Below, in pieces: positions 3,001 to 57,676 of a stretch of DNA of 64,000 nucleotides. The stretch spans positions 1 through 64,000 of IMG/VR virus record IMGVR_UViG_3300042402_006309, one strand, 5' to 3'. Origin of the DNA: a virus. The translations under genes were made by a program, and so were the position numbers. Numbering within the stretch: the first letter of the stretch is position 1; each line of letters opens with the position of its first letter. Below the pieces are notes generated by a model that worked only from the letters and a program-made list of their open reading frames with translations, was not told the DNA's origin and did no database searches.

Positions 3001-3314
3001 AGAATGACTTGTTTCTGCTGCAATGGATCAGAAGAAAAATACCGGTCGTAGATCTGTTTGAAGGTAGGAAGGTTGCCACTGGATTCGAAGGCGGAATGTC
3101 CTAATTCGGAGAGTGAGGATGGTTTCGCATAGCGGGCTAGACCGACGCTGATATCCCACCTGATGCTTCCCCCGCTAGGCGCACCAGAGCCCCCAGTGCC
3201 ATTCTTTTCGCAATCGTTCGGTGTATCGGTGGGGGTGCCTCCGGGCGGATTGACGCCCCAGGCCGGGGTAGTGACAAGCAGGGCGGCGAGTAGGAAATAA
3301 CGGAGCGGAGACAT
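1..3314 (-). CDS. RHS/YD-repeat protein, C-terminus off the left edge
   Basis: From an ATG at 3314 one minus-strand frame stays open to the left edge, at least 1,104 codons. The N-terminus is a signal peptide (MSPLRYFLLAALLVTTPAWG). About 300 residues without obvious repeats follow, then a long run of YD/RHS-type repeats such as FDPLGRPVKR, YGYNGEGERTTT and DYDYDAHQRLKTV, with a KYACCG motif ahead of the main repeat block. RHS repeats build a hollow beta-cocoon that usually encloses a variable C-terminal toxin or adhesive domain; that end is outside the window. A 9-base unit repeated three times at 1893-1919 encodes Leu-Asp-Pro repeats. The gene starts 34 bases after the helical-repeat gene and is probably its operon partner. 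The repeat type is certain; the role is not. Confidence 0.9.
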   Translation of the reverse strand, partial: MSPLRYFLLAALLVTTPAWGVNPPGGTPTDTPNDCEKNGTGGSGAPSGGSIRWDISVGLARYAKPSSLSELGHSAFESSGNLPTFKQIYDRYFSSDPLQQKQVILRLSQPRVSSATLHPSCLFLQSEAIYETLRKTAANGTEYIHQILTDDAFTLIEQLTPPETGWRLRVWKRDASVLSKSGGYYVTAGFTSQSVYPLTDVTFKDPATGNPEDKLLYIQVERTGSGTRIITSKISEETDNDGNQVDFFRLYSGEGATGNPLSEEKLTYIRIPGAKQWDYTVIREVRTASTQGDLVLTAKSLENYDDFSTSSETGGEQGMKRLVQKIDAYDISGQSEQTTTYEYYMDTENPAKHGRLKSTNHPDGSWNFHEYNVSLENPVSIIAEYSGWKDLKLDEREQAKKTVTTVTASDSTVESFVAGQLVSISQSTLIPGEEENLTITKNWTGTGDPTNPDSWQVTTTSYYPESLDPLDPLDPAPNPSTGRIKWVEKSDGTASTYSYSSAGGYLTTVTRSGAGSRSGVTKGTQIDTTYRIGNFPTAQATYHIKSQNEIEAIESWTADEFDPLGRPVKRIYNDVAADYDETKYACCGLDEFRARDGSIIKYSRDYLKRVYQTDFRATADSPVITTSTNYEVNLLTPNHGLTTTRTSTSNVPGSATLFLGSTSRSLDGLTTITVEPSRKSNAEELEFDPEADRVTTTTFTAHSATGDIVTTTHADTSTTITAHYLDGQIKSVSGSAVPDAQYDYGTFSEGSGGLTSKVTSSGVSTETFTDPLGRTTKTVSPATGTTNYAYYPADAGAGSRGKLQSVTDGDGVTVTYGYNGEGERTTTSRSIPIAGNATATQVTTVGNDVVSGINPHNEDFGVSLHHTQTVSSTDFDPIIVSESYRSIDGLKSAIVTPSGSTVTTTTRPNSSGVATRTTIHPDGTKTVETLTHGLTTRVENQDSSTAHNVISHVDYDYDAHQRLKTVTDSRTGTAGTTTYSNFTESGQPLTTTQGSTPNIRVTHLAKDILGRTIATTLPNNSVAYTSYWPTGQIRAQWGTQTNPVFHVYDEQNRLIELHTWQTAPALDLTTDEAPDGSAKTEWIYSATTGLLVEKNHPGETDNGT

Positions 3315-3348
3315 GGCGATGACGGATGGGTTGGAGTTTTTTTGTGAG

Positions 3349-4341
3349 TTATTCGGAAGGGGCGGGGCTGTCGGCGCGTGCAATGCTGCTAGATAGGGAG
3401 CGGTGGGCGTCGCGGGCCGCATAGGAAAGCTCCGGGAAGGTCTCGATGATCCGTTGGAGCGCTTCGAGGTCGGCGGCTTCGCCGCACTGGCCGATGGCGG
3501 CGATAGCGGGCAGGCGCAGTGAGGACTGTCCGGTTTCCGAAAAGGCGATGCCGCGCAGAATCGGGCGGAACTCGTCTGGGGCGACCACTCCGGCGGCATG
3601 GACGGCGGAGACGCGCACTGGATTGGCCAGCTTGCTGCCGTCGCGCAGCGCCTCGGCCAGCCATGGTTTGAGCGTGGATATGGCGGAGGAGCAATCTACG
3701 CCACCCGGACCGCGGGCGAGCGAGGTGAGCATCATGAGGGTGGTGCCGGGGATGGTGCTCTGGGAATGGGCAGGATCCATGGCGGCGGCGGCGAGGCGGT
3801 CTAGCACGAGAGCGGCGGTTTCCGGTGAAGGCTTGGCGGCGGAGGCTGGCGCGGCTTGTGAGGAGCGCGGATTGAGCCAGGATGCCAGATGTTGGACGGC
3901 ATAGTCGCGTAGCACGGGCGGCTGGCGGGTGTCATCGAGGATGTCGAGCAGGCGTGTGGAGAAGCGCTGCTGATCGGGATCGCGCAGCCGGAGCTGCTCC
4001 ATGAGATCGTTGGCAATCACATACCAATGTTCGGACAGTTCGCCGGCGGCCGGGCCGCGTGCGAGCATTTGATACATGTCGCGGATCTCGCTCTCGTCGC
4101 ACTCGGAGCGGAGGGAAGAGCGCAGGAAGTCAATGCGTGCCTGCCACGGTTTTCCCGGGTCAAGGACGGCTTCGAGGCGGGAGGGTGCGGGGCTTTCCTG
4201 ATTGCTAACGGACTTGGATTTCGCAGGCGTGGCGGGAAGTTCCTGCGCCGGCCCGGGACGGCTGGTTTTCCATGCGAAGAAGCCGGCCGCGCCGAGCAGG
4301 ACGGCGGCGGATACAGTCAGGGCGTGACGTTTGGCGGGCAT
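3349..4341 (-). CDS. Membrane-anchored helical-repeat (HEAT-like) protein
   Basis: A 330-residue protein with one N-terminal hydrophobic segment (residues about 9-24) and then a Pro/Ser-rich linker, so probably anchored in or exported across the inner membrane. The remainder is alpha-helical; residues about 235-315 read like HEAT repeats (for example VRVSAVHAAGVVAPDEF, LRLPAIAAIGQCGEAADLEAL, then LEALQRIIETFPELSYAA). HEAT repeats are binding scaffolds and no catalytic motif is visible. It lies between the PA14/TSP3 gene (66 bases upstream) and the RHS gene (34 bases downstream), all in one direction, which suggests a role connected with the RHS protein, such as secretion or assembly. That role is inferred from position only. 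Confidence 0.75.
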   Translation of the reverse strand: MPAKRHALTVSAAVLLGAAGFFAWKTSRPGPAQELPATPAKSKSVSNQESPAPSRLEAVLDPGKPWQARIDFLRSSLRSECDESEIRDMYQMLARGPAAGELSEHWYVIANDLMEQLRLRDPDQQRFSTRLLDILDDTRQPPVLRDYAVQHLASWLNPRSSQAAPASAAKPSPETAALVLDRLAAAAMDPAHSQSTIPGTTLMMLTSLARGPGGVDCSSAISTLKPWLAEALRDGSKLANPVRVSAVHAAGVVAPDEFRPILRGIAFSETGQSSLRLPAIAAIGQCGEAADLEALQRIIETFPELSYAARDAHRSLSSSIARADSPAPSE

Positions 4342-43715: not shown

Positions 43716-43913
43716 TCATTCAATGGCACCACGTTCGACGAGGCTTTTCTTCCAGTCGCCCTCAAAGCCAAACGTCGGAGCCTTCACGGGCTCGGACAAC
43801 CAGAAGTCAGTGAAGGCCGCAACGTTCGGAGCGCAAAACCAATGTGCTTCGCCGTTTTTGTCCATCGCCCACCAACGGGCATTCTTCGGAGCCGCGGACC
43901 AGTCGATTTTCAT
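43716..43913 (-). CDS. Small phage protein, opposite strand
   Basis: 65 residues on the minus strand between rightward genes. MKIDWSAAPKNARWWAMDKNGEAHWF is a pattern I know from small phage proteins of the KIDWS..AP..A.. type with aromatic residues. The plus-strand frame through the same bases is less plausible. Isolated reverse orientation suggests a separately expressed accessory gene. Confidence 0.6.
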   Translation of the reverse strand: MKIDWSAAPKNARWWAMDKNGEAHWFCAPNVAAFTDFWLSEPVKAPTFGFEGDWKKSLVERGAIE

Positions 43914-43964
43914 TTGACCAAACTATCATTCCGTATCCGGCGAGCAAGGAAATCCGCCGTGGCG

Positions 43965-43970
43965 TTGACA
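43965..43970 (+). promoter_or_regulatory. TTGACA motif upstream of the CmoA-like gene
   Basis: CGTTGACATC, TTGACA starting 20 bases before the ATG at 43985. Confidence 0.45.
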
Positions 43971-43984
43971 TCCACCACGCGGGC

Positions 43985-44707
43985 ATGAGTGAAGCCCAAC
44001 GTGACGAGGTGATTCCACGCGGTGCCTGGCAGTTCGATCAGGAAGTGACCGCCGTGTTCGATGATATGCTCCAGCGGAGCATCCCTCAATACAACGCGAT
44101 GCGCATGGTGACTTTTGAGGTTGGCCGGCGCTTCGTGCAACCCGGCACCGCAATCATCGACATGGGCTGCTCCCGCGGCCAGGCGCTGCTGCCATTCGTT
44201 TCCAACTTCGGCGCGGACAATGATTACATCGGCCTTGAAATCAGCGAGCCGATGATTGTGGCGGCGCGTCAGAACTTCAACTACCACCCGCACGGCAATC
44301 GCGTCACCGTCCAGTCTGCCGACCTTCGCCACGAGTTCCCTGGTGTGACAGCGAGCCTCGTGCTCTCGGTGTTGACGTTGCAATTCACGCCCATCGAATA
44401 CCGCCAGCAGATCATTCGGCGAGTGTTCGAGTCTCTGGCTCCGGGCGGTGCCTTCATCCTCGTTGAAAAGGTTCTCGGCGCGACGTCCAAGCTCGATGAG
44501 GCGTTCGTGAACCTGTTCCTCAACATCAAGCGCGAGAACGGATATTCGGAGAGCCAGATCGACCGCAAGCGGATGTCGCTCGAAGGCGTGCTGGTGCCCG
44601 TCACCGCCCGCTGGAACGAGGAGCTACTCTATCAGGAAGGGTTCACGTCGGTCGATTGCTTCTGGCGGCATCTGAACTTCGCCGGGTGGGTGGCGGTCAA
44701 ACCATGA
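43985..44707 (+). CDS. CmoA-like SAM-dependent methyltransferase
   Basis: 240 residues, close in layout to CmoA, the carboxy-SAM synthase for the tRNA wobble base cmo5U34: VFDDMLQRSIPQYN near the start, FVQPGTAIIDMGCSRG (SAM-binding motif I), then LTLQFTPIEYRQQIIRRVFE, PGGAFILVEKV and NIKRENGYSESQIDRKRMSL. Whether it keeps the prephenate-binding Arg of true CmoA I cannot confirm. Phages carry CmoA-like genes occasionally; with a tRNA-like element nearby this hints at tRNA or RNA modification. Its stop overlaps the small-terminase start by four bases. Confidence 0.75.
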   Translation: MSEAQRDEVIPRGAWQFDQEVTAVFDDMLQRSIPQYNAMRMVTFEVGRRFVQPGTAIIDMGCSRGQALLPFVSNFGADNDYIGLEISEPMIVAARQNFNYHPHGNRVTVQSADLRHEFPGVTASLVLSVLTLQFTPIEYRQQIIRRVFESLAPGGAFILVEKVLGATSKLDEAFVNLFLNIKRENGYSESQIDRKRMSLEGVLVPVTARWNEELLYQEGFTSVDCFWRHLNFAGWVAVKP

Positions 44708-53356: not shown

Positions 53357-53671
53357 ATGCCTGCCACGTTCGGAGTCCAGAACACCTTCGGTTTGTCGCC
53401 CGCCAGCGGCCACGCGCACGAGTCATCCGATGACGCGTCCATCGAAGTGGCCACGCTGCGTGACGAGAACGGCGTCACCGTGGTCGCCAAGCCGAAGAAG
53501 ATGGTGACACGCAACATTTCGCTATCCGGCAAGGGGCTGCCGAACTTCGCCGACGTGGCGGCCGGTGCCATCACCGCAGGGACCGCGTTTGTCACCTCGG
53601 TCAAGCAGTCCGAGAGCAATGACGACTTCCCAGGATTCGAGATCCAGGCGGTCGCCTATCAGGACAACTAA
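53357..53671 (+). CDS. Tail-tube-like protein, paralog 1
   Basis: 104 residues ending FVTSVKQSESNDDFPGFEIQAVAYQDN-like: the segment TSVKQSESNDDFPGFEIQ recurs almost unchanged in the next gene (TSVKNSESNEDFNSFEV). The N-terminus TFGVQNTFGLSPASGHAHE is beta-like. Two successive copies point to a duplicated tail-tube or collar subunit. No named family recognised. Confidence 0.6.
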   Translation: MPATFGVQNTFGLSPASGHAHESSDDASIEVATLRDENGVTVVAKPKKMVTRNISLSGKGLPNFADVAAGAITAGTAFVTSVKQSESNDDFPGFEIQAVAYQDN

Positions 53672-53685
53672 GCCTCACCCAAACC

Positions 53686-54024
53686 ATGCCCGCTGCATTC
53701 AACGAAATCGGAATCGGCTCCATCACCGCCTCGCTGGTCGAGTCGCTCGATGTGGAGAAGAAGATCGATCACAAGGTCATCAAGACTTCCGTGGGCGGCT
53801 TCGCGCAGGGCCACCGCCACGACCCGATGTTCGAGTTCAGCGTCAAAGGTCGCGGCAGCGCGAGTGCCACATTGCTTGGAGGCAGCGGCTCCACCTACGC
53901 GCCCAGCCAGATCAGCGGCGGCGTGACCATTCTCACCAGCGTCAAGAACTCCGAGAGCAACGAGGACTTCAATTCGTTCGAGGTCGCCGGGGTCAACTAT
54001 CCGGGCGCGGGAGCACAGGTCTAA
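53686..54024 (+). CDS. Tail-tube-like protein, paralog 2
   Basis: 112 residues, similar to the previous gene in its C-terminal half: FEFSVKGRGSASATLLGG aligns with ISLSGKGLPNFADVAAG, and both end with the TSVK..SESN.DF..FE segment. Beta-rich, as tube proteins are. The first 60 residues (GIGSITASLVESLDVEKKID) differ. Probably arose by duplication; both may be needed in the tail. Confidence 0.6.
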   Translation: MPAAFNEIGIGSITASLVESLDVEKKIDHKVIKTSVGGFAQGHRHDPMFEFSVKGRGSASATLLGGSGSTYAPSQISGGVTILTSVKNSESNEDFNSFEVAGVNYPGAGAQV

Positions 54025-54507: not shown

Positions 54508-54873
54508 ATGAAGGCGCTGTCCATACTGCTTGCCATCACCACGGCGTCTATCCTCGGCGCGTCCGCCGGTCAGGTGAAACTGGCATGGAATCCGAGTAAA
54601 GGTGCCCAGCCGATCACCTACCGGATCTGGCGCGGCATCGAGCAAATCGCCGAGGTGAGCGAAACCACCGCCACGGTCACGCTTCCTGACACGCCGGTCA
54701 CCCTGACCGTATCCGCCCACAACGAGTTCGGCAACTCACCGCACTCCGCGCCACTCCACCTTGTTGCGCTGAGGGTCCAGGAAAGCACCAACCTGCGTGC
54801 GTGGTGGTATGTGAAAACGATCTATCAGGAAAAGGAAACCGCCGCCTTTTACCGATTGGAAATCATCCCATGA
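54508..54873 (+). CDS. Exported fibronectin-type-III-like protein in the tail operon
   Basis: 121 residues. Residues 1-20 are a typical signal peptide (MKALSILLAITTASILGASA), followed by one FnIII-like domain (WNPSKGAQPITYRIWRG, VTLTVSAHNEFGNSPHSAPL). FnIII domains also occur in phage tail and decoration proteins, but a signal peptide is unusual there, since virion proteins stay in the cytoplasm. It may be exported to the host surface during lysogeny or lytic growth. Overlaps the next start by four bases. Confidence 0.75.
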   Translation: MKALSILLAITTASILGASAGQVKLAWNPSKGAQPITYRIWRGIEQIAEVSETTATVTLPDTPVTLTVSAHNEFGNSPHSAPLHLVALRVQESTNLRAWWYVKTIYQEKETAAFYRLEIIP

Positions 54874-55283
54874 ACGACCGAGAACAATTACTTTCCGCCG
54901 CGATGGTGGAGCCGAGTGAAGTGGAGATCCTTGGCCTCAGACTGCGTCCGTTCACGTATGGCACGATGCTGCTCGCCCACATGCTCGACCTGCCGCTGGT
55001 GCGTGGCGCGGAAGTGGAGGATTTTTCCGAAGCCGACATCCACCGCCAGATTTCCACGTTCGCATGGATGCAATCGGTAGCGCCCGGCGAAGTGACCAAA
55101 GCCATCCGTGACAAGACGGTGGAGACGCAGGCATTGGAATTCGCCATGTTGCAAATGACCCCATCGCGCATTGAGGGCATCATGGATCATCTGGCAATGG
55201 TCGCCGCCATGGTCCAGGCCGCCACGGTGCGGGCCGAAAGCCGCCACAAGGGAAGTGAGGAAGACGCGCCGGGAAAGTCCTGA
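54870..55283 (+). CDS. Tail assembly chaperone G, zero-frame product
   Basis: 137 residues. Mainly helical and acidic with LGLRLRPFTYGTMLLAHMLD in the first half, typical of gpG-type tail assembly chaperones that keep the tape measure soluble. The frame ends TGA at 55281-55283, preceded by the slippery heptamer at 55271. Ribosomes that slip back one base make the longer GT product. It sits between the tail-tube genes and the tape measure as lambda G does. Confidence 0.8.
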   Translation: MNDREQLLSAAMVEPSEVEILGLRLRPFTYGTMLLAHMLDLPLVRGAEVEDFSEADIHRQISTFAWMQSVAPGEVTKAIRDKTVETQALEFAMLQMTPSRIEGIMDHLAMVAAMVQAATVRAESRHKGSEEDAPGKS

Positions 55284-55525
55284 GCCCGCACTGGCTGGCG
55301 AGTGTCACCTACACGCTGGCCAGGGACACGGGTTGGAGCGAGGAATTCATCCTGTGGCAAATGCCGCTGGCCCGCGCCATGCAATACTATCACTGTGCGT
55401 TGCAGGCGGCCGGGTTGTGGACGCTCGAACCACCGGACCCGCAGACCGCACATGAGCTGGTATCAGCAGACCTGCTAGCCCACATCGACGCACTGGTTGA
55501 CGAGGAGGGCGTGGATGATGAATGA
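54870..55525 (+). CDS. Tail assembly chaperone GT, made by -1 frameshift
   Basis: The G frame joined to the -1 frame gives residues through PGK followed by VLSPHWLASVTYTLARDTGW and ending VDEEGVDDE at 55525. The T part (55277-55523) is an 82-residue, protein-like frame without its own start. In lambda, GT:G at about 1:30 is needed for tail assembly; the slippery site GGGAAAG here is the same as lambda's. Its end overlaps the next gene. Confidence 0.8.
55271..55277 (+). promoter_or_regulatory. Programmed -1 ribosomal frameshift site GGGAAAG
   Basis: In the G frame the heptamer is read as G GGA AAG, a canonical X XXY YYZ slippery site, identical to that of phage lambda G/T. Slippage by -1 lets translation bypass the TGA at 55281 and continue to 55525. 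Confidence 0.82.
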
Positions 55526-56189
55526 TTCGATGGAGCTGAGGCTGGATACAGGAGAATTCCGCGACGCCATGGTGAGGCTGCGGCAGTTCTCCAAGCGCGA
55601 GGGCAAGGTGTTCGTTGAAGAACAGGTTCGGGGATTCATCCGCAACCTGCTGGATGTCACCCCGCCGAACCGTGGATCACGTCGCGGTGTGGCGGCGAAG
55701 AAGGCGGGTGAAGCGGCGATTGCCTCCGACATCCGCGCGGTTTTCCGCGGGGTTACCAACGAAAACAGGGTCGAGGTGAAAAGCATTTCCGAAATGGAAC
55801 AGGTGCTCAAATCGAGGCGCAAAAATGGCTCCATGCGGGTGACGTCCGGCACGGGCAGGATACGCGCTCAGAGCGCCATGATTCGCGAATTGATCAAGAT
55901 GCGCAAAGGCCGGGTCGGCAAACTCGCGTCGGCATGGGTGAGCGCCGCCCGCGGGCTCGGTAAGATCCGTGTTCCTGCGTGGATTGCCCGACACAGTGAA
56001 CCCGGCCATACCCGCTTTGCTTACTCTGAGGACAGGGTTAGCGCAGCCGTTGTCAATGCCGTCGAGTGGGCATCCAACGTGGACGGAATCACCCGCCGCG
56101 TGCGCGCCGCGCTGCAAATGCAGACGAGGGCGATGGAACGCCGGCTCGAATTCTTCATCAATCAAGCCGGGAAGCGCAGTCGATTCTAA
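55515..56189 (+). CDS. Tail protein of unknown function (gp10/minor tail-like)
   Basis: 224 residues, overlapping the T frame end. Basic and helical (FSKREGKVFVEEQVRGFIRNL, SRRGVAAKKAGEAAIASDIR), with LEFFINQAGKRSRF at the end. Similar basic proteins often precede tape measures in phages. The start at 55515 is one of three close ATGs. No family named with confidence. Confidence 0.6.
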   Translation: MMNDSMELRLDTGEFRDAMVRLRQFSKREGKVFVEEQVRGFIRNLLDVTPPNRGSRRGVAAKKAGEAAIASDIRAVFRGVTNENRVEVKSISEMEQVLKSRRKNGSMRVTSGTGRIRAQSAMIRELIKMRKGRVGKLASAWVSAARGLGKIRVPAWIARHSEPGHTRFAYSEDRVSAAVVNAVEWASNVDGITRRVRAALQMQTRAMERRLEFFINQAGKRSRF

Positions 56190-56203
56190 ACGCACAACAC
56201 TCC

Positions 56204-57676
56204 ATGGCCAAACTCACTGCATTCCTCACGCTCAACGCTCAGGCGTTCAATCAGGCGCTCAAGAGTTCGCAATCCTCGGTCAAGGGGATGGAGGGACAAT
56301 TGCGGGCGAGCTCCGGCAAGATGTCGTCGGCATTCAGCACCATCAGCCGCGCCGCCAAGGTGGGATTTGCGACGGTGGCCGCCAATGCCACGGCAGCTTT
56401 TGCAGCAGTCGCCGCTTCGATGAAATCCGCACTCGATGAAGGCGGGCGCATTTCGGATGTGATGGCGCAAACCGGCGCGAGTGGTCGCAACCTCGTCGTT
56501 CTGGAGCAGGCATTCAAAAACGCCGGATTGGAAAGCGGGAAAGTGGCCACTTCGCTGGGCAAGATGCAGAAAACCATCGTGCAGGCGTCGGAAGGCGGGG
56601 CCGCAGCAGCAGCGACGTTTGGCAAGCTCGGGCTGGCGGCATCAGACCTTGTGGGGCTCGACGCCGTGGAATCTTTCCGCCGCATTTCAGAGGCGATTGC
56701 CGCGCTTCCCAGCCCAACCCAGAGAGCGGCCGCGGCCATGGAGGTTTTCGGTCGCAGCGGGGCAAGCCTAATGGCGGTGATTGATGACCCGAGCGCGTGG
56801 AACAGCGCGGCCGACCTTGCGGGGAGCTATGGCGACATCATCGGTGAGAACGCAGTGCGATTTGATGCTGTGAGTGACGCGATGGGCAATATGGGAATCA
56901 TCATGAAAACCATCGGCGCTGTGGCAGCCGAGGCGATGCTGCCGCGCTTGGAAAAGATGATGGATCTGCTGCCCGAACTGGCACGGGGCCTCAGCCTGAT
57001 TGACTGGAGCAATCCGTTCAACACCGACGTGGACCCGGAAGCCGCCCGCCGCCAAGCGGAGCAATGGGCGAAGGATGATCCCAACGCCGGCCGCAGCCGC
57101 ACGGAAGACGAAGCCGCCGCGCTTGCCCGCAAGAACGAAGCGTTCTGGGCAGGCAAGGAGGCGGAGAAGCAGGAAGCCATTGCCGCCGCAGAAGAAAAGG
57201 CACGCATCGAGGCGGAAAAGAAAGCCGAAGCTGATCGCAAGAAGGCCGAGGAAACCGCCAAGACCCGCGCTGCCGCACTGGACTCCTACAAGCTCGAAGC
57301 GGCGATCATCCAGGCGCGCATCGAGGGCAATGATGAAATGCTCACCAAACTCGAACGTGAAAAACGCATCCGCGAGGAAATGGCAGGGCTCGTGCAGGCG
57401 GGGTTCACCGACGAGGAAGCACGCAAAGGGGCCACGCTCATGGTGGACAAGCAGGCTCAGGCGGATGCCACTGAAAAAGCGCGGCGCGGCAGTGTGAGTT
57501 CAAACGCCAACCAGCTCGGTGGCTTCGCCCAATCCATGAACCTGCTCTTCGGCCGCAGCGCGAACGCCGGGTTGCTGGAAGAAAACAAACGCCAGACGGA
57601 ATGGCTGCGCAAAATCCACGACAACACCAATCCCGACAAACGTCCCAAAACCAACCCTGACGTCGTCTTCGCATGA
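56204..57676 (+). CDS. Tail tape-measure protein
   Basis: 490 residues. Starts MAKLTAFLTLNAQAFNQALKS, with a tape-measure-like N-terminal region (TLNAQAFNQALKSSQSSVKG), Ala-rich helices (AAAAATFGKLGLAASDLVGL) and a long charged coiled coil (EEKARIEAEKKAEADRKKAEE) in the last third. Length sets tail length; by the usual ~1.5 Angstrom per residue this would be a short tail of roughly 70 nm. Located after G/GT as expected. Overlaps the next gene by four bases. Confidence 0.82.
   Translation: MAKLTAFLTLNAQAFNQALKSSQSSVKGMEGQLRASSGKMSSAFSTISRAAKVGFATVAANATAAFAAVAASMKSALDEGGRISDVMAQTGASGRNLVVLEQAFKNAGLESGKVATSLGKMQKTIVQASEGGAAAAATFGKLGLAASDLVGLDAVESFRRISEAIAALPSPTQRAAAAMEVFGRSGASLMAVIDDPSAWNSAADLAGSYGDIIGENAVRFDAVSDAMGNMGIIMKTIGAVAAEAMLPRLEKMMDLLPELARGLSLIDWSNPFNTDVDPEAARRQAEQWAKDDPNAGRSRTEDEAAALARKNEAFWAGKEAEKQEAIAAAEEKARIEAEKKAEADRKKAEETAKTRAAALDSYKLEAAIIQARIEGNDEMLTKLEREKRIREEMAGLVQAGFTDEEARKGATLMVDKQAQADATEKARRGSVSSNANQLGGFAQSMNLLFGRSANAGLLEENKRQTEWLRKIHDNTNPDKRPKTNPDVVFA

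Follow-up and report, generated by a model that had tools for sequence, protein, structure and literature searches.

What does the reading frame that continues past the stop codon of gene G encode, and how is it reached? We addressed this question in the window, by which we mean the whole 64,000-nucleotide stretch analysed (positions 1-64000 of a virus record with a length of 65,886 bases). A sequence-only reading of this DNA had proposed a programmed frameshift of the lambda G/GT type. We find this to be the best reading of the locus, given an in-phase slip site, selection on both frames and maintenance of the arrangement in relatives. G and T are very probably a tail assembly chaperone pair produced by a lambda-type −1 programmed frameshift, where the slippage, its rate and the chaperone role are what we infer from the sequence.

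A −1 frame lacking its own start overlaps the end of G

The features of the locus are as follows.

54870-55283, + strand: gene G, zero-frame putative tail assembly chaperone, 137 aa (ORF; homologues in 30 aligned loci)
55271-55277, + strand: slippery heptamer G_GGA_AAG, in phase with G
55277-55525, + strand: T domain in the −1 frame, 82 codons plus TGA
55281-55283, + strand: zero-frame stop TGA of G
55291-55323, + strand: possible stimulatory hairpin, 13 bases 3' of the heptamer (from folding energy)
55515-56189, + strand: ORF between T and the tape measure gene, overlapping the T end, no PHROG match
56195-57676, + strand: tape measure protein of 493 aa (matches phrog_8462, tail length tape measure, with E 9.2e-17)

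The zero-frame codons at the slip site are CCG GGA AAG TCC TGA, and the TGA of G starts ten bases after the first base of GGGAAAG. The sequence, phase and stop are therefore all as the sequence-only reading had described them, namely lambda's heptamer ten bases before the zero-frame stop. Read from 55277, the −1 frame gives VLSPHWLAS...VDDE and stops at 55523-55525; joined to G residues 1-136, T would make a GT fusion of 218 aa. The first ATG, GTG or TTG codon of the −1 frame is the ATG at 55361, which is T codon 29. T is conserved in relatives from its first residues, and P4, A15, T18, W20 and E22 all precede any start codon in the window.

An alternative is that T is a separate gene, reached by reinitiation or from an internal start, and that the heptamer is incidental. 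Because G ends within T, a terminating ribosome could restart there, and the T of some relatives has early GTG codons. We nevertheless consider this very improbable, because the window offers no start before codon 29 while T is conserved from residue 4, because no start position is common to all relatives, and because the in-phase heptamer of every intact relative would be left unexplained.

Selection acts on both frames and probably on the slip site

Pooled over the near clade, dN/dS is 0.15 for the T frame and 1.8 and 2.1 for the two remaining frames over these bases; it is 0.11 for G. Both the G and the T frames are under purifying selection. The earlier description of the −1 frame as an 82-codon coding stretch without a start thus holds, since no start precedes 55361 and the frame evolves as a coding one. 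The T frame thereby combines the lack of a usable start of its own with coding selection, as the architecture of a frameshifted T predicts. A disrupted T frame in related phages had been named, together with a missing GT product, as what would speak against the frameshift; we looked for such disruption and found both frames constrained.

The −1 frame is open only from 55259 to 55525, which limits the overlap of G and T to eight codons. As a bare string, GGGAAAG is not enriched in the window (7 seen, 9 expected). The in-phase pattern X_XXY_YYZ (Y = A or T) occurs at none of the 4347 codon positions of ten other structural genes of the window, and a chance origin of the in-phase heptamer in the eight-codon overlap is therefore unlikely. 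Under the codon usage of this phage, Pro-Gly-Lys is encoded as CCG GGA AAG ~4% of the time. When 22 conserved degenerate residues of G were compared in 20 near-clade sequences, only five had an invariant codon, and four of these five are the consecutive CCG GGA AAG TCC over the slip site. The TCC is also coding in T but CCG GGA AAG is not, so that the freezing of these codons points to the slip site itself. The codon invariance is a strong indication of slip-site constraint, to be read as coming from related sequences and not as an independent count. G_GGA_AAG is among the most shift-prone heptamers (PMC5009743).

Relatives keep a slippery site and vary its sequence

A search with the GT protein returned one close viral contig (L003), and a search for G in genome contigs gave no match. 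We used the major head protein as an anchor for relatives, which yielded 80 viral loci and 26 loci in bacterial MAGs. In a survey with a T profile, all 48 T-bearing sequences, a number that includes the window, one contig counted as both L003 and L041, and some other near-copies, carry GGGAAAG or AAAAAAG directly before T and in phase with G. In the near clade the heptamer is GGGAAAG and the stop falls at +10; in the distant clade it is AAAAAAG, followed by a TAG at +34. The distant-clade member L075 departs from this in having GGGAAAG and a stop at +37, and the T tree places it inside the AAAAAAG clade, in a topology whose deep forks are weakly supported.

The run of six or seven A in the distant-clade heptamer raises the alternative that the frame change comes from transcriptional slippage on the A run and not from slippage of the ribosome. 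In the window and its clade the G's enclose just three A, and a run of this length is too short for polymerase slippage. The conserved feature is moreover the in-phase X_XXY_YYZ pattern. We give transcriptional slippage even less credence than a separately started T.

The whole records behind loci seemingly without T were then searched for further T. This search gave nine more sequences with GGGAAAG or AAAAAAG, one with AAAAAAA and a truncated G, and one diverged relative with CCCAAAC and the stop at +10. Three T-like matches in a 12.6-Mb MAG have no heptamer, and their G is truncated or broken; three further T-like matches are fragments of T. Where the heptamer is missing, G or T is truncated, and the loss of the heptamer is confined to broken copies within one bacterial MAG. 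Most records that gave no T match are short fragments, in which the absence of T says little.

These data also bear on the idea that the frame break is a sequencing error or marks a decayed gene. Indels do occur in metagenomic contigs (L083 has the heptamer and an indel within T), and broken copies are present in one MAG. The same break is found in dozens of contigs, however, with both frames under purifying selection, and this recurrence refutes the idea, which we regard as having practically no chance of being correct.

Two further elements of the G/GT architecture, an in-phase heptamer near the 3' end of G and the retention of the arrangement in relatives, are thus present. It is slipperiness that the relatives conserve and not the string GGGAAAG. 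The sequence-only reading had argued for functional constraint from conservation of the very same heptamer as in lambda. The part of this argument that stands is the in-phase slippery site, which is kept; the exact string varies, and with no homology of G or T to those of lambda, common descent with the heptamer of lambda does not follow.

Some copies of T depart from the single arrangement. At L056:9757-10303, and also in L062, a tandem second copy of the G end and T follows the first T. The T sequence of this second copy is kept, with a short ATG-started stretch that overlaps the first T stop and with no slippery heptamer. The 12.6-Mb Verrucomicrobia MAG contains nine T-like places (L112, L118, L120, L122 and L124-L128), in several of which a similar stretch, FHLRSTILDLRSSLLIF, stands in place of the first half of G. 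It looks as if a G fragment with T had spread in this genome, or as if many decayed prophages had one common insertion.

A probable frameshift in Akkermansia phage Moulinsart

Moulinsart is a prophage induced from Akkermansia muciniphila (PMC10197239). Its record (ON453896, L129) contains a T-like −1 frame that is very divergent and matches the T of a relative by tblastn with E 0.04. A gene of 152 aa ends in TCA AAA AAC TAG, which places an in-phase AAAAAAC directly before the stop, and the −1 frame goes on as T-like sequence (GWAGLIMIMARATGWTEYYIKHMPL...). Moulinsart and the window thus have in common an in-phase heptamer and a T-like −1 frame, with AAAAAAC in Moulinsart and GGGAAAG in the window. 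The Moulinsart record annotates two separate hypothetical proteins and no frameshift. A frameshift at AAAAAAC would join these two annotated genes (locus 3040-3740), and we regard it as a probable unannotated −1 frameshift.

RNA structure around the heptamer

By local folding energy, the 60-base stretch 3' of the heptamer ranks in the 1st percentile within the window and in the 3rd in L003. The pairing of the hairpin at 55291-55323 is not conserved in relatives beyond the window and L003, and a search for conserved 3' RNA structure found one covarying pair, with a covariation term of −0.1. Across relatives, the tendency to fold 3' of the heptamer is weak (median 18th percentile over 60 bases). 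No stimulatory structure common to the relatives emerged; the strong folding in the window and L003 may help the slip locally. A Shine-Dalgarno-like GAGG ten bases 5' of the heptamer is present in the window and some relatives and absent in most.

Comparison with lambda and known chaperones

The window and lambda are alike in that G_GGA_AAG stands in the same phase near the end of G (137 codons in the window, 140 in lambda), is followed by a −1 T frame and lies 5' of the tape measure gene. They differ in the distance from the heptamer start to the stop (10 bases in the window, 22 in lambda) and in the length of T (82 residues in the window, ~144 in lambda). While lambda T directly abuts the tape measure gene, the window has one extra ORF between the two (55515-56189), and the tape measure gene begins 670 bases 3' of T. 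Relatives show a comparable gap between T and their tape measure match.

The proteins themselves match no Pfam or PHROG family. We searched Pfam, PHROGs and PDB sequences with G and T, both singly and in aligned form, and obtained nothing useful; profile comparison with lambda G and T (hhalign) gave a probability of 0.1% for both. We thus detected no relationship to the lambda proteins or to any chaperone family of Pfam or PHROGs. The predicted fold of G (model pLDDT 80) had no PDB match, and its fold search returned only uncharacterised phage proteins at E 0.04-0.08. The T model is weak; its second match is a 'tape measure chaperone' of Burkholderia phage Mica, with a probability of 0.99 but E 0.5 over 39 columns. 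The fold searches with both models gave nothing significant.

Frameshifts of the G/GT type in tail chaperone genes are also described in other tailed phages and in haloarchaeal viruses, according to Xu, Hendrix and Duda (2004) as cited in PMC5009743, and the frameshift is common to the class despite low sequence similarity (PMC5009743). Because the class is defined in this way, we file the window pair under the architectural G/GT class and not under the protein families of lambda. It differs from other G/GT phages in coming from uncultured Verrucomicrobiota phages and in having protein families absent from Pfam and PHROGs. Since the relatives use three other heptamers and G and T have no detectable homology to those of lambda, the identity of the heptamer with that of lambda appears best explained as convergence on a highly shift-prone sequence.

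Proposed mechanism and significance

In the mechanism we propose, most ribosomes would stop at the TGA at 55281-55283 and yield G (137 aa). In a minority, the tRNAs paired with GGA in the P site and with AAG in the A site would slip one base back onto GGG AAA, and these ribosomes would read on to 55525 and yield GT (218 aa). In lambda, many copies of G bind the tape measure protein, the partner of the T part is the tail tube protein, and a G:GT ratio of about 30 to 1 matters for assembly (PMC5009743). By analogy with lambda, the role of G would be to coat the tape measure protein, and that of the T part of GT to recruit tail tube subunits.

The frameshift trick itself is known; our analysis adds to the sequence-only reading the turnover of heptamers, the selection measured for G and T, the protein families that no library recognises and the probable unannotated frameshift of Moulinsart. 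The G/GT frameshift is thereby documented, at the level of sequence, for phages of a little-studied host phylum, with proteins that lie outside the family libraries. Annotation pipelines can miss GT, both in the window and in the isolated phage Moulinsart. The relatives with differing heptamers form a natural series for asking whether the G:GT ratio is kept. A bolder and rather doubtful reading is that these genes form a Verrucomicrobiota-specific tail chaperone family which has no sequence relationship to those known and which keeps the frameshift while switching between four heptamers (GGGAAAG, AAAAAAG, CCCAAAC and AAAAAAC), with the heptamer perhaps tuned to tail length or host tRNA pools.

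Host group

The earlier assignment of the window to a Verrucomicrobiota phage agrees with the head protein relatives: the titles of all 26 MAG loci name Akkermansiaceae, Akkermansia or other Verrucomicrobiota. Among named phages, the head protein matched only Verrucomicrobia phage P8625 (26% identity), which gave no T match. Searches of named phages with GT (tblastn) and with the region (blastn) gave no match. Verrucomicrobiota are also the hosts of the named phages that matched best. A Verrucomicrobiota host is thus supported for the window phage as a host group, which is not proof for this record.

Neighbouring genes

The genes around the slip site include a terminase large subunit, a lambda-type portal protein, an S49 protease and a major head protein. 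No gene of the window 5' of G was identified by family match as a tail tube gene. Directly 5' of G, at 54508-54873, lies a gene whose small product begins like a signal peptide and has a stretch resembling a major tail protein domain (phrog_7440, E 2e-5). Judging by gene spacing, L003 carries this gene as the window does, and many near-clade relatives are without it. The adjacent small ORFs at 53357-53671 and 53686-54024 have a common C-terminal motif, TSVKxSESNxDF..FE, which occurs twice in relatives too; they gave no family match and may encode paralogous tail tube-like proteins. Just 5' of the terminase genes is a gene for a class I methyltransferase (43844-44707; Methyltransf_25, E 3e-12).
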